From: Cyanobacteria bacterium FACHB-471
GTDB lineage: Bacteria; Cyanobacteriota; Cyanobacteriia; Elainellales; Elainellaceae
Reading direction: 5' to 3'
Assembly: GCA_014695345.1 (NCBI GenBank)
Contig: JACJOC010000098.1
Span: forward strand, 124,001-188,000
Length of the DNA stretch: 64,000 bases
Shown here: positions 24,515-47,909 of the stretch, in pieces
Numbering within the stretch: the stretch's first letter is position 1
Layout: each line of letters begins with the position of its first letter
Notes under the pieces: model-generated
Databases searched by the model: none
Told to the model about the DNA's origin: nothing
What the model saw: only the letters and a program-made list of their open reading frames with translations
Position numbers and translations under genes: made by a program

Positions 24515-24602
24515 GCATAACGTTTGCAATCACCGGACGCAGACAAACTTTGCAACTTAACCAACTATATTGAAACGTTCCGGTGCAGTGCGATTGTTAG
24601 GC
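24515..24602 (-). repeat. attC-like integron recombination site (site A)
   Basis: An 88-base imperfect palindrome. Read on the minus strand it starts with GCCTAAC (24602-24596, inverse core RYYYAAC) and ends with GTTATGC (24521-24515, close to core GTTRRRY). Inside, TGCACCGGAACG pairs with CGTCCGGTG, leaving a bulged base, as in attC sites. The 36-base centre is not paired. It lies 3' of the GC-rich hydrolase gene in the orientation expected for a gene cassette. A second GTTATGC occurs at 25656-25662 (minus), bounding a unit of about 1.15 kb. The core has one mismatch to GTTRRRY (T at position 5). The identification is structural. Confidence 0.65.
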
Positions 24603-24703
24603 GGTGTTTCTACTATGAGGTCCGACGGGGCCGACGCGTCCCCGGCTAACATGGCGCTTCGCAAATCTTCTTCCCGCACCCGGACTTCATGCACGTCGCT
24701 CAT
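24557..24703 (-). pseudogene. 5' fragment of a DUF4440/NTF2-like gene
   Basis: ATG at 24703-24701 overlaps the hydrolase stop (ATGA), so the two were translationally coupled. The peptide begins MSDVHEVRVREEDLRSAMLA and continues GDASAPSDLI, the usual start of SnoaL-like/DUF4440 proteins. Similarity then stops and the frame runs into the attC-like site (TAA at 24557). Only about 30 of the roughly 130 residues expected remain. It was truncated when the cassette end formed or afterwards. Confidence 0.6.
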
Positions 24704-25458
24704 TTCGATTCCTCTGCGAAAAGATCAAGAACCGCTCGCCATGCGCGCTCAGTGTGTTCTGGGTGATAGCCGGCACCTGGCACGGTCGATTGAACATGCG
24801 TGAGCCCTTCGGTCGGCGATCCATCCGAATTTGTCGGGCGAGCCCAAAAGGCGTGCTGGGCACCGCCATAGATGTTTACGCGCCAGTCAACCCCGGCATC
24901 CTGTAATGCGTGACCAAATGCGAGAAGTTGGTCGGGAGTGCAAAGCGGGTCCTCGGAGCCAGTACAGAGGAGGATAGTGCTGTTTATATCGCGCCAGTCC
25001 TGGGCATCAGGTTCCGGCAGGCCGGGATGAACGACCGCGATGGCCTTGAAGGGTGCGCCTGTTTTCGCAAGCTCAAGGACGATATGGCCGCCAGCACCAT
25101 AGCCGAGAGCCAAGAGCCGGTTGGCGTCAACATCAGGTGTCGCGAGGAGAACGTCCAGCGCTACGCGACCAATAGCCCGCATCCGTCCAGCGTCGGACAA
25201 CAAGGGCATGACCCGAGCCAACATCGCGTCGGGTCTGCCAAAGAAGGTCTGTCCGCCGTGAAAGTCCATCGCGAGTGCAACATAGCCGTGCGCGGCGAGA
25301 TCATCAGCGCGGCCCCGCTGGTAGTCGTCAAGACCAACGCCGTCGTGTCCAATGAGAACTGCGGGCCAAGGACCCTCGCCGTGCGGCCGTGCTAGATGAG
25401 CGACCATGTTCAGTCCGTCTGCGTCGTAGAAGACTTGGGAAGTTGTGATTTCGTGCAT
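24700..25458 (-). CDS. Dienelactone-hydrolase-family protein lacking the nucleophile Cys, foreign composition
   Basis: 252 residues of alpha/beta-hydrolase fold: HDGVGLDDYQRGRADDLAAHG, MDFHGG, the nucleophile-elbow region LALGYGAGGH (118-125) and GAQHAFW. DLH enzymes use Cys in GxCxGG. Here residue 121 is Gly (GGT), while the likely acid Asp170 and His202 remain, so hydrolase activity is doubtful. The gene is clearly richer in G+C than its neighbours and has no GCGATCGC site in 759 bases, against many nearby. The start ATG 25458 follows GAGAGG. With the DUF4440 fragment and attC-like site it forms a cassette-like unit. Transfer from a GC-rich bacterium is likely. Confidence 0.88.
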   Translation of the reverse strand: MHEITTSQVFYDADGLNMVAHLARPHGEGPWPAVLIGHDGVGLDDYQRGRADDLAAHGYVALAMDFHGGQTFFGRPDAMLARVMPLLSDAGRMRAIGRVALDVLLATPDVDANRLLALGYGAGGHIVLELAKTGAPFKAIAVVHPGLPEPDAQDWRDINSTILLCTGSEDPLCTPDQLLAFGHALQDAGVDWRVNIYGGAQHAFWARPTNSDGSPTEGLTHVQSTVPGAGYHPEHTERAWRAVLDLFAEESK

Positions 25459-25484
25459 ATCTTACCTCTCGTTGCTCGCGGAAT

Positions 25485-25607
25485 CCACACTTGGTACACG
25501 TCGGCATCCATCGCATTCTGAATCGATTCAAAAACTGGAGTCCATGCCCGAAGCGAAAGACGAACAATAGCATCAAGATGCTGAGGAGTGTATTGTTCAA
25601 TTTGCAT
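25485..25607 (-). pseudogene. 5' fragment of a GNAT acetyltransferase gene
   Basis: ATG at 25607 encodes MQIEQYTPQHLDAIVRLSLR and then AWTPVFESIQNAMDADVYQV, the N-terminus of a GNAT-family acetyltransferase. Similarity stops at about residue 41, where family members usually read YPDWR. The sequence changes there to the leader of the GC-rich hydrolase gene. No C-terminal GNAT part is seen on the far side of the block. The break marks a recombination junction. Confidence 0.6.
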
Positions 25608-25655
25608 TTCGAGATGGAGTTTAGAAGACGCCCAAGGATTGTAGATAATTAAGCC

Positions 25656-25815
25656 GCATAACTATTAATAGACTGAAATTTTCCGCATAAGATCCTAATG
25701 GTTGGTGGATAGGCAGAATGGTTCTGCACAACACACCGAATCTGCATAATAAGCAGATTATTTCTGCATATTATGCAGATTAAGCTAAACAGCTAGAATC
25801 TTTCCGCATATTTAC
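25656..25815. repeat. Six spaced GCATA-type motifs with a 41-base hairpin
   Basis: Motif (C/T)(C/T)GCATAA or close variants occurs with GCA at 25656, 25685, 25726, 25744, 25766 and 25806. The spacings are 29, 41, 18, 22 and 40 bases. Positions 25740-25780 form a near-perfect hairpin: 12-bp arms (ATCTGCATAATA / TATTATGCAGAT), one A-A mismatch, a 5-bp inner stem and a 5-base loop. It sits between the end of rsmA and the GNAT fragment. It could be an operator array or a recombination-site remnant. Confidence 0.6.
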
Positions 25816-25816
25816 C

Positions 25817-26641
25817 TCAGTCCTTAACTTCTTCTGCTAACTGATTACTCAATGCCACCCAATTCTCGACGCTTAAATCTTCGGCGCGGGCTTGGGGGTT
25901 GATTTCGAGTTGTTCTAGTAACTGGTTGAGGCGATCGCGCTCCACCACACTCATCAAGTTATTTCGCAACATCTTACGCTTTGTCGCAAACCCCAGCTTC
26001 ACCAAAGTTTCCAGCTTACGAACATTGGTTACAGGCAGATGAAACTGGCGTGGACGCAATCGCACGACAGCGGAATCAACTTTGGGTGGCGGCTGAAAGG
26101 CTTTAGCCGTGACATCACAAATCCATTCGCACTCGGCTAAATACTGCACTCGCACCGATAGCGCCCCGTAGTTTCTGGAGCCGGGACGGGCACACAGCCG
26201 CAGGGCTACTTCTTTTTGCAACAGCAGCACGATCACGTCAAAGGGGTGGGGGTTTGGGGTGGCTATCGCTCCCAACAGCTTTTCTAAAATCGGACCAGTA
26301 ATGTTATACGGAATGTTTGCAACCACTTTGTTGGGCTGCTGAAAGTCTGGAAATGCCAACAGTGCAGCCTCTAAATCAAGGGAAAGGATATCTCCCTGGA
26401 GCAGCAAGAAATGATCAATTTTGCCTAACTTTTCTACTAGCAGCTTGCATAAATCTCGGTCAATCTCAACGGCAACTACCGCTGCTGCCTTTTCTAAAAG
26501 CGGTCGGGTTAAGGCTCCTCGACCAGGTCCAATTTCTAAGACGCGATCGCCCTCCACTAACCCCGCTGCTGCCACAATTTTCTGCAACGCCTTTTCACTA
26601 CGCAGCCAGTGTTGTCCAAATTGTTTACGAGCTTGAGGCAT
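25817..26641 (-). CDS. rsmA: 16S rRNA dimethyladenosine transferase
   Basis: 274 residues. It begins MPQARKQFGQHWLR, followed by SAM motif I VLEIGPGRGALT (35-46), an acidic residue after strand 2 (VEIDRD) and the catalytic NIPYNI motif (109-114). The C-terminal helical domain is complete. RsmA dimethylates two adjacent adenosines near the 3' end of 16S rRNA during small-subunit assembly. It is transcribed towards ispE, its usual neighbour, but is now separated from it by the cassette block. Confidence 0.96.
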   Translation of the reverse strand: MPQARKQFGQHWLRSEKALQKIVAAAGLVEGDRVLEIGPGRGALTRPLLEKAAAVVAVEIDRDLCKLLVEKLGKIDHFLLLQGDILSLDLEAALLAFPDFQQPNKVVANIPYNITGPILEKLLGAIATPNPHPFDVIVLLLQKEVALRLCARPGSRNYGALSVRVQYLAECEWICDVTAKAFQPPPKVDSAVVRLRPRQFHLPVTNVRKLETLVKLGFATKRKMLRNNLMSVVERDRLNQLLEQLEINPQARAEDLSVENWVALSNQLAEEVKD

Positions 26642-44687: not shown

Positions 44688-45674
44688 TCACGGCACCATA
44701 ATTACATGGGTTATCACACGGGGCAACGTAGAGTAGAATGAGTAGTCTCTGCTCCATCTATATGCATCCACGTCTACACCCTCTTTCACAAAAATTAGGA
44801 ACAGTAGTACACGAATGTTTCCATTGCGTTTGTAGAATCGTGCAAGGCCATCAAGGGTCTTCACCACCTCTGCCTTCTTGCCGTTGCTGTCAATAAACTT
44901 CATCTCGACGATTAACTGATTGTCAAAGAAAGCAAAGTCCGCACTCTTTCTCTGCTCATCATAAATGACGGTCACTTCTTCACGTGCAATAGATGGCAGC
45001 CACGGTTTCACAACAGTGTAAAAGAGGTTCTGGCAATCGTACTCTGATTTCAGATTAACTGTCCAACTATCCTTTGCTGCACCTCGTTGTCCGAGATCAG
45101 TTGGCTTCAGTATCATGCGTTTGGCAATTTCAGTCAGCATAGCAGTAGCCTTATCAACGGTATCACCAATGAATGGACAAACAGGTAGCCCTGCATCTTC
45201 TGCACGCTTGATCATGTACTGCCAACTAAGTTCTCCTACGCTCCCATCGGGTAGTACCGTAGCCGCAAAGTTTACTGTTCCGCCAACTTCGAAAACCCAT
45301 GAAACTGGAGGCTCAGTAAATCCATCCTGAGCACTCCAAAGCAACAACGCATCTAGTTTTTCAACTAGTTCCTCAAAGGCATCAGCCCACACGTAGCTGT
45401 CGTTCATACAACTAATGGCTCGTCCGCCTTCAGCAATGAAGAAGTCAAGTGCACGGCATTGAGTAAGTGCGAAATCACGTAGAGCGCTGGCCTTGACGTA
45501 CTCTCCCTGCTTAACGCGAACGAGAATATCACAATCGGAACGCAGGCTCTGTGTACCATAGGCTCGCGAACCAAACATCCATAACTCAGCAATACTGACC
45601 TGCTCGTCTACTAACTCGCTTAGAAGTAATTTGAGATTGTACTTAACGTGTGTTGGTTGTTTCCCAAGCGGCAT
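44688..45674 (-). CDS. Nucleotidyltransferase fused to a PD-(D/E)XK nuclease-like domain
   Basis: 328 residues. The N-terminal domain has the nucleotidyltransferase motif FGSRAYGTQSLRSDCDILV (Gly35-Ser36, Asp47, Asp49). A middle helical part (about 75-195) may be its lid. The C-terminal domain has a restriction-nuclease pattern: Glu211 in LKSEYDCQNLFYTVVKPWLP, Asp246 in RKSADFAFF and Glu257-x-Lys259 in LIVEMKF. All catalytic residues seem present. I know no named family with this fusion. It resembles MNT-like antitoxins and defence nucleases. It follows the attC-like site B on the same strand, 81 bases after the core, so it may be a second integron cassette, although no attC was found after it. 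Confidence 0.8.
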   Translation of the reverse strand: MPLGKQPTHVKYNLKLLLSELVDEQVSIAELWMFGSRAYGTQSLRSDCDILVRVKQGEYVKASALRDFALTQCRALDFFIAEGGRAISCMNDSYVWADAFEELVEKLDALLLWSAQDGFTEPPVSWVFEVGGTVNFAATVLPDGSVGELSWQYMIKRAEDAGLPVCPFIGDTVDKATAMLTEIAKRMILKPTDLGQRGAAKDSWTVNLKSEYDCQNLFYTVVKPWLPSIAREEVTVIYDEQRKSADFAFFDNQLIVEMKFIDSNGKKAEVVKTLDGLARFYKRNGNIRVLLFLIFVKEGVDVDAYRWSRDYSFYSTLPRVITHVIMVP

Positions 45675-45755: not shown

Positions 45756-45842
45756 GCCTAACGGCACAGTTGAGCGGCAACTGACCAGTTTGAAGGCAAC
45801 ACCAGGAGCTTCGTTTGTCCGCTCCAACGCCGTGTTTCGACC
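45756..45842 (-). repeat. attC-like integron recombination site (site B)
   Basis: About 87 bases directly 3' of the interrupted gene. Minus-strand core GTTAGGC (45762-45756) fits GTTRRRY exactly. Plus-strand GTTGAGCGGCAA (45769-45780) pairs with TTGTCCGCTCCAAC (45815-45828) over 12 bp, leaving two extra bases on one arm, as attC sites do. The outer part GCCGT.TT continues the pairing less well, and the inverse core is degenerate. An identical GTTAGGC lies 37 bases upstream of the gene (46607-46613). Gene and site thus fill an 850-base cassette-like unit. Confidence 0.7.
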
Positions 45843-45849
45843 GCAACCG

Positions 45850-46569
45850 CTACGGTGGACCCTGTAACAACTTATCGATAGCACCTTCAAGAAGCTTCTG
45901 TCCTGGTTTAGAAGATAACGCACGAACGCTGAGAGCGTACAACTTACTACATGCAGTTCTAAACCAGCTTCGCTTCGACATATTGCGAGTTGCTCGTGCA
46001 AGATCAGCAATAACCCCTCGGATTTCTTTAAGTTCAGCTTTCGTCAAGGTACTTTCTTTTTCAAGTTCCGTAACTCGTTCCTAAAATTGATTTAGTTTCT
46101 CATAAAGATCAGCACGCTCTTCTTCAGAGAAATGTGCATTTTCATCATCTATATGTTCATCAAGCCGTTTATTCAATTCGTCCTGAAAATGCTCTAGACG
46201 CTGCTGAAATAAATTAACTAAAAGGTATTCGTTTTTTATTCGTTCAGTCCAGAGGCGTAATGCATCAAGAAATTTAGCAAAAGACTCAACTTCATGACTT
46301 TCTACTTCAACAAAATCGCCTGATGCTTGCTCTACCTTAAGAATGCGAACCTCCTGCATACCGGTTATCGCTGTCAGTGCTAGAAGAGAACTAGGACGTT
46401 TGGTAGCGTAGCGAAGTTCAATGAAATATTTATCGTTATCACAAAATTGAACTAGAACAATTCTATTTTGATCTTCTGAAGTTTCTACAGTGAAGCCTGC
46501 GGATGTGAAGAATGATTCATCAAGGATATCTGAAACTTGGGCTAAACGAGTTTTGGTTAGCTTTGGCAT
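45850..46569 (-). pseudogene. Cassette gene of unknown function split by one in-frame TAG
   Basis: A 162-codon frame from ATG 46569 stops at TAG (46083-46081). The same frame then stays open for 77 more codons to TAG at 45852-45850. Reading through gives a 239-residue protein. The N-terminal half is alpha/beta (VSDILDESFFTSAGFTVET; KYFIELRYATKRPSSLLALTA). A coiled coil spans the stop (ERADLYEKLNQF*ERVTELEKE), and a basic helical tail follows (KRSWFRTACSKLYALSVRAL). A single C-to-T change of CAG would create the stop. The first half could still be made. A TTG restart at 46047 is possible. The family is unknown. Confidence 0.72.
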
Positions 46570-46606
46570 AATGCAGAATCATTCGGCACTGTAGATTTTG
46601 AATCCA

Positions 46607-46613
46607 GCCTAAC
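46607..46613 (-). other. Core site at the 5' boundary of the cassette-like unit (candidate attI or secondary site)
   Basis: GTTAGGC on the minus strand, identical to the core of attC-like site B, 37 bases before the cassette gene start. It lies between that gene and the integrase remnant, where attI is expected in an integron. No strong palindrome surrounds it, which also fits attI. Confidence 0.5.
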
Positions 46614-46789: not shown

Positions 46790-46923
46790 CAAGCACTCTC
46801 AGTAGGACACACGACATTTCACAGTGTAGGAACTGCTGAGGCACAAGACTGTAAGCAAGATGATCTACACGCACGTGTTGAACAAAGGTGAGTGTGAAGT
46901 ACGCAGTCCGCTGGATGAAGGGA
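46790..46923 (+). pseudogene. intI: IntI-type integron integrase, C-terminal remnant
   Basis: The clearest part reads HKTVSKMIYTHVLNKG followed by ECEVRSPLD (46841-46916), the C-terminal signature of integron integrases (MIYTHVLNRG..GVRSPLD), with the Tyr nucleophile present. Upstream, in shifted frames, are V-G-H-D-I and T-V-(stop)-E-L-L-R-H, matching GYDIRTVQELLGH. There is one TAG and small indels. A KHS before that may be left of RHSFATH. The rest of the gene is missing. It is divergent from the cassette-like unit, as intI is in integrons. The gene is dead. Confidence 0.75.
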
Positions 46924-46963: not shown

Positions 46964-47212
46964 TTACTCTCCCACTCTTCGATCGCGCACTAAGATACTC
47001 ATCACTTCACCTGTATCCGGTGCGGGTAACAATGGACTCCATGCGCCTACTTCGGCAAAGCCGCGACTGTGGAGTTCGTGAATGGTGCTGATTACGCCAT
47101 CACGGGAGCTAATAATCAGGACTCGAACTCGTTCGCGTTCAGGGAGCGGGATAGGAGCAGCTTCTCCCTCAACGGTTGCCCAGTTGAGGGATTCTAAGAA
47201 ACAGTGAGACAT
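46964..47212 (-). CDS. Conserved hypothetical small protein
   Basis: 82 residues from ATG 47212 (MSHCFLESLNWATVEG), with GGAG nine bases upstream. The frame is open from 47239. The central part LPERERVRVLIISSRDGVISTIHELHSRGFAEVGAWSPLLPAP looks like a compact alpha/beta protein, and VMSILVRDRR ends it. It seems to be a known cyanobacterial hypothetical family, but no function can be given. It lies between the integrase remnant and a repeat-rich stretch. Confidence 0.6.
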   Translation of the reverse strand: MSHCFLESLNWATVEGEAAPIPLPERERVRVLIISSRDGVISTIHELHSRGFAEVGAWSPLLPAPDTGEVMSILVRDRRVGE

Positions 47213-47255
47213 GAGTTGTGACTCCGTTAGGGTTTGCAAAGAAACCCCAAAAACC

Positions 47256-47377
47256 TAGCCACCCCACACTTATTCACGCGCTGCAAAAGTGAGTGGAGAA
47301 ACAAAAAGTGAGTAAACTCACTTTCATGTTCTAAAGGGTTTGCAACGCTTTTTTGACATGACAAGTCGGGGTGGCTA
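47256..47377. repeat. Nested inverted repeats with a central 20-base palindrome
   Basis: TAGCCACCCC (47256-47265) and GGGGTGGCTA (47368-47377) are perfect 10-bp arms about 100 bases apart. Between them AAAGTGAGT/ACTCACTTT (47305-47324) is a perfect palindrome with a 2-base centre. A third AAAAGTGAGT half-site lies at 47285-47294. GGGTTTGCAA occurs on both sides (near 47230 and 47336). Confidence 0.6.
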
Positions 47378-47642
47378 AGGGAGTGTTAAAATTCACCGTT
47401 AGCCGCCAGACTGCTTGTACCAGTTTGGGGGTTAGTCGCTCATTGCTGGTGTCAACAGCTTTGAGCGGCGCTAGATTCTTGGGTTTTGTCGGGTTGCTGC
47501 AAGTAAAAAAGACAACCTTGACGTGACAGCATATCTGAGTGAACGGTATCTCGTCAAGGTGGTAAGTTACGAAGTTTTTGAGGCAATGGGGAGGGCGATC
47601 GCTCCTCTTACCAGTATGTTTTCTAGAAAATGTAAACAAAAA

Positions 47643-47825
47643 CAGGTTTAAGAGTTTAAAGCAAGGTTTTTAAATTTCAAAACAAGGTTTACAAGTTTAA
47701 AACAAGGTTTTTAAGTTTGAAATCAGGTTTTTGAGCTTAAAAACAAGGTTTTAAACTTCTAAAACAGGTTTACGAGTTTGAAACCTTGTTTTTAAATCTA
47801 AAAACAGGTTTTTGAGTTTGAAAAT
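47643..47825. repeat. Iteron-like array, nine units of 19-21 bases
   Basis: Units begin with CA(A/G)GGTTT at 47643, 47662, 47683, 47703, 47724, 47744, 47765, 47784 (CCTTGTTT variant) and 47805. The consensus is close to CAAGGTTTTTAAGTTTGAAA. Spacing of 19-21 bases puts units two helical turns apart on the same face. No reading frame explains it. It lies between the accessory island and the TrmH gene. Confidence 0.8.
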
Positions 47826-47909
47826 TAATTTTCTGAGTCGAGTAGGACATACGCAAACAGAAGCAGTCCTGTATATTTGTTGGCAGAATGCACTGGCGTA
47901 AGTTGAACT

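Follow-up and report, generated by a model that had tools for sequence, protein, structure and literature searches.

The unit at 45756-46613 of the window (the whole 64,000-nt stretch that was analysed, positions 124,001-188,000 of contig C117) is very likely, with a probability of roughly 0.83, the first cassette of a cyanobacterial-type chromosomal integron that has decayed, accompanied by the 3' end of the integrase gene (intI). The genome is a 7.15 Mb draft assembly in 118 contigs with a completeness of 99.87%. The features of this unit and of a second attC in the window are as follows.

45756-45841, minus strand: attC site B, from a match to covariance model R1, pairing and alignment; cassette sense on the minus strand
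45756-45762: R' core of site B; 45769-45780: L' arm; 45815-45828: L'' arm
45824 and 45818: extrahelical bases of site B; about 45834-45841: eroded R'' box
45850-46569, minus strand: cassette gene, probably one 239-codon frame split by a TAG at 46081-46083
46607-46613, minus strand: GTTAGGC, putative attI/cassette junction core, assigned by position only
46806-46916, plus strand: degraded integron integrase gene of which the 3' end is left (IntI profile positions 278-313); it carries a stop and has lost one codon
46926-47602, minus strand: repeated module, a small ORF (47239 or 47212 to 46964) with a conserved leader
24515-24602, minus strand: a second, well-preserved attC in the window, R1 76.6 bits, E 5.3e-18
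24700-25458, minus strand: gene of the dienelactone hydrolase family, located shortly upstream of the second attC, Pfam DLH E 5.3e-33
25650-25813, plus strand: element similar to the attI/intI-promoter region of relatives, with no intI after it

The R1 model was trained on 19 palindromic sites from the DNA upstream of intI in other cyanobacteria, and the window contributed none. Common to these reference attC are R boxes, an L stem whose L'' arm carries one extrahelical base, another unpaired base deeper inside (usually A), and an overall length that is mostly close to 87 nt. Their proposed pairs are paired in 91% of cells with strong compensatory change, and the covariation score is 0.484 vs 0.138 after shuffling. 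In a search of the 64 kb window with all filters off, site B scores 51.8 bits (E 2.3e-11); R1 E-values are approximate, and the model derives from those sites near intI that were more palindromic. The remaining matches in the window do not exceed 12 bits, save two: the attC at 24515-24602 and the same site read in reverse (18.9 bits). The sequence-only reading had called site B attC-like; this independent model agrees, and the score is not at background level. R1 is specific, as 12 of 98 sampled cyanobacterial genomes give zero matches at E <= 1e-3; the same 12 are also without intI. In an Rfam scan of the whole window nothing reached the gathering score.

The L stem of site B is composed of GTTG/CAAC, AGCGG/CCGCT and CAA/TTG, which confirms the earlier claim of a 12-bp pairing that leaves two bases extrahelical (45824 and 45818). 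The 87-base imperfect palindrome described before is likewise present as a palindromic site of 86-87 nt. Site B thus has an L stem with extrahelical bases and the conserved R' core GTTAGGC, as cyanobacterial attC do. The R'' box is eroded to GTCGAAAC, which is only in part complementary to R', and the alignment shows GCCTAAC-like boxes in relatives. The R1 match together with the L stem argues for a decayed integron; the eroded R'' box counts against it.

The minimum-free-energy fold of the 87 bases does not take the attC form, and the same is true for many of the 19 reference attC. When the L stem is enforced, the bottom strand of site B takes the attC fold with a probability of about 0.2, inside the reference range, although the comparison is rough since the reference attC were scored with more pairs enforced than site B. 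Folding of the single strand, suggested earlier as a check, is uninformative in its plain form. The two identical GTTAGGC cores reported in the sequence-only reading are indeed present (minus strand, 45756-45762 and 46607-46613), but the heptamer itself is not significant. The window contains 8 copies of it vs 6.6 +/- 2.7 expected, so the two cores are no proof by themselves and the R1 match carries the case. The lack of significance of the core at 46607 is a further point against a decayed integron. The unremarkable plain fold and the chance-level heptamer would fit a chance or unrelated palindrome, such as a terminator or a repeat element, beside an intI scrap. Since the E-value came from a model that excluded the window, and 12 genomes were without any match to that model, this explanation is extremely improbable.

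The segment at 46806-46916 matches the end of the IntI profile with an E-value of 1.9e-5, and it is 73% identical over 33 residues to an intact cyanobacterial IntI. The intI remnant is therefore real. It lies about 1 kb from attC B, and the cassette and attC B are located 5' of it in the opposite reading direction. This is the canonical layout that had been proposed, with attC on the minus strand, intI on the plus strand and both in the right order. The canonical polarity of the intI 3' end, combined with the orphan cassette-like gene content, argues for a decayed integron. There is no match to the attI regions of relatives between 46614 and 46806, which counts against this reading, as does the presence of a single attC at the locus. 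Of the parts of a complete integron, the locus retains attC in the canonical opposite orientation and lacks a functional intI and a recognisable attI next to it.

The site B locus resembles the sedentary chromosomal integrons of Cyanobacteria (PMC8352920) in its R and L boxes, its extrahelical bases and an intI opposite to the cassettes. It differs from them in that intI is reduced to the last 36 residues, attI is unrecognisable and only one attC is present. It is similar to a CALIN in having attC and a cassette gene without a functional intI. Unlike a CALIN, for which the default threshold is two attC (PMC12444791), it has one attC, the next (at 24.5 kb) being 21 kb off, and a scrap of intI is still present.

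The cassette gene appears to be broken. The minus-strand ORF from 46569 encodes 162 aa up to a TAG stop at 46081. Since the same frame remains open for 76 codons past the TAG and stops at 45850, only 8 nt from attC B, the region is probably one 239-codon gene with a nonsense codon. The cores were said to bound exactly one gene; there is one gene region between them, but the gene is probably not intact. No relatives of it were found in 390 cyanobacterial genomes, among GTDB species genomes scanned by pattern or in plasmids, and there is no credible family match. Such orphan status is typical of cassette content. The gene next after attC B (44688-45674, minus strand) encodes an N-terminal nucleotidyltransferase domain fused to a DpnII-MboI-like REase domain, and has zero relatives in the 98 sampled genomes. 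R1 finds no second attC behind this gene in the window, which also counts against a decayed integron.

The module directly 3' of the intI remnant has an ORF of 82-91 residues. In the same-genus genomes G001 (contigs C275 and C266) and G002 (contig C32), the module sits directly 3' of an intact intI, which argues for a decayed integron in the window. The genome studied here has about 14 module copies. Six copies (C117, C6, C38, C115, C35 and C73) are accompanied by an attC (E <= 1e-3) no more than 2 kb away, with side and strand as expected, vs about 0.08 expected by chance according to our own arithmetic, and a seventh (C32, at about 71 kb) has a weaker attC nearby. The interval between attC and module contains an attI-like element without intI in C6, C115 and, weakly, C32, IntI residues 9-65 in C38, apparent degraded intI tails in C35 and C73, and IntI residues 281-313 in the window. 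In contig C683 of G002, IntI residues 10-42 abut residues 260-313. These varied scraps allow repeated partial or complete loss of intI to be seen directly. The excess of attC-flanked modules, with attI or intI scraps in between in most of them, is therefore a further argument for a decayed integron at site B.

The small protein encoded in the module (46964-47239, minus strand) belongs to a family with the motif RGFAEVGxWSPLLPxPxxGEVMSIL, for which there is no Pfam or NCBIfam model. The family is multi-copy in 50 of the 98 sampled cyanobacterial genomes, with 18 matches here and a maximum of 35 per genome, and upstream of its ORF is a conserved, noncoding leader of about 340-390 nt (47264-47602 in the window). 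In other genera the module is multi-copy and rarely adjoins intI. It may be an independent gene family whose link to integrons is peculiar to this genus. Short AT-rich tandem-like repeats (AAACAAGGTTTTTAAGTTT) are located at 47636-47840 between the module and spoU, and are also found in G002 (C118 and C37). Contig C275 of G001 was considered as the orthologous locus since several hundred bases align, but a thioredoxin gene lies beyond the module there and spoU in the window. The spoU flank of G002 is orthologous and includes the module, but the contig ends before intI would start. In G001 the spoU flank lacks the module and carries a solitary attC, oriented the same way.

The sequence-only reading overlooked the broken cassette gene, the recurring half-eroded platform, and a better attC with an attI-like element at 24.5-25.8 kb. 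The dienelactone-hydrolase gene is likely the cassette gene of this second attC. The attI-like element is about 80% identical to a stretch that ends 85 nt upstream of the intact intI in C266 of G001 and C32 of G002. In the window ksgA begins at 25817, 4 nt after the element, where intI is absent. The half at 24515-25813, which comprises the attC, the dienelactone-hydrolase gene and the attI-like element, is probably a second relic. A single integron split by a 21-kb insertion, with one part at 24.5-25.8 kb and the other at 46.8 kb, would fit the orientation. The 21 kb, however, contain ordinary chromosomal genes such as ksgA, and the platform is found many times over, which makes two separate relics the likelier reading.

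It is unlikely that site B is a solo cassette that was placed off-target in trans by an IntI from elsewhere, with an unrelated scrap of intI nearby, and was never the first cassette at this locus. Off-target insertion is a recognised source of integrase-less attC (PMC8618304), attI is unrecognisable at the site B locus, and lone attC are found at other places in this genome and beside spoU in G001. However, attC, intI scrap and module are oriented, ordered and spaced as in the other platforms of the genome and in the intact integrons of the sister genomes.

IntI acts on the bottom strand of attC in its folded form, cutting the core between G and TT and joining the site to attI. Under the preferred reading of a decayed integron, an intact IntI would have cut the bottom strand of site B (the plus strand of the window) at the same G/TT step, and the joining of the cut site to attI would have inserted the gene beside intI as a cassette. 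Later losses would have removed most of intI, part of the R'' box and whatever could be recognised as attI, and a nonsense codon would have arisen in the gene. Unless IntI is supplied in trans, site B is most likely inert today.

A cassette that is still usable, with an IntI in trans from an assembly gap or incoming DNA able to excise it or to insert at site B, is unlikely. Because the genome is a draft in many contigs, an intI might hide in an assembly gap, and as many as five intI matches are seen in a single genome among the relatives. Site B retains an intact L stem, compatible with the attC fold at the probability given above, and cassettes of CALINs, which are common, can be mobilised in trans (PMC9668308). 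However, a TIGR02249 profile search found no intact intI in the 99.87% complete draft, the R'' box is eroded and the gene is apparently broken. The TIGR02249 matches in the genome score below 37 bits with partial model coverage, far under the 265-bit cut-off, and were rejected as intact integrases. There are also two tyrosine-recombinase-like sequences (L093:7783-8250 and L110:8604-9071, on contigs C19 and C8) with 24-31% identity to IntI and attC a few kb away; their score rules out IntI.

The genome has about 41 attC (E <= 1e-3) by R1, spread over 21 contigs. The largest group is on contig C93 (L094), with at least 7 attC (E <= 1e-3) across 2.4-18.3 kb and neither intI nor module near it. 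Clusters of attC are thus present on contigs other than that of the window, e.g. C93 and C32. In the sample of 98 cyanobacterial genomes, 56 have a TIGR02249 integron integrase match (E <= 1e-20), of which 39 exceed the curated cut-off, and 86 have attC by R1, where a per-genome count of 45 means at least 45. Of the 42 genomes with no intI match, 30 nevertheless have attC, so integrase-less attC are common in cyanobacteria. Recurrence of the arrangement in many genomes without integrase had been named as a point that would refute the reading; it is partly seen in these 30 genomes, as the known CALIN phenomenon, but the 850-base cassette unit of site B has no second occurrence in the 390 cyanobacterial genomes.

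Cyanobacterial integrons and a taxon-specific cyanobacterial attC model have already been published (Ghaly et al. 2021, PMC8352920; PMC2426708; PMC8618304), and intI pseudogenes are common, at nearly a third (PMC2426708). Integron decay with scattered CALINs has been described in Xanthomonas, where intI is likewise truncated or absent and residual cassettes persist; there, the retained intI sits at one place beside ilvD (PMC12444791). In contrast, the genome studied here has several integrase-less platforms, many of them beside copies of one small gene family. The integrons and integrase-less attC clusters of cyanobacteria are therefore known, and the number of integrase-less platforms in this one genome is the notable part. 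The open-access literature yielded neither a description of many such platforms in one cyanobacterial genome nor a survey dedicated to cyanobacterial integrons.

The attC site B and the intI remnant are confirmed here by a model and not by eye; a default integron search could miss them since there is a single attC and intI is mostly deleted. A broader explanation, which we consider doubtful, is that the attI-intI head multiplied in this Leptolyngbya-like genus with or beside the leader-bearing small gene, and that most copies lost intI. If so, the outcome would be a distributed integron with many integrase-less attI/attC platforms, which in the sister genomes would be served in trans by one or two intact IntI. 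With several integrase-less platforms in one genome, it becomes testable whether they are frozen relics or still have IntI acting on them in trans. The finding of attC in 86 of 98 genomes, 30 of them with no long intI match, points to integron-derived cassettes as a sizeable and little described share of cyanobacterial genomes.
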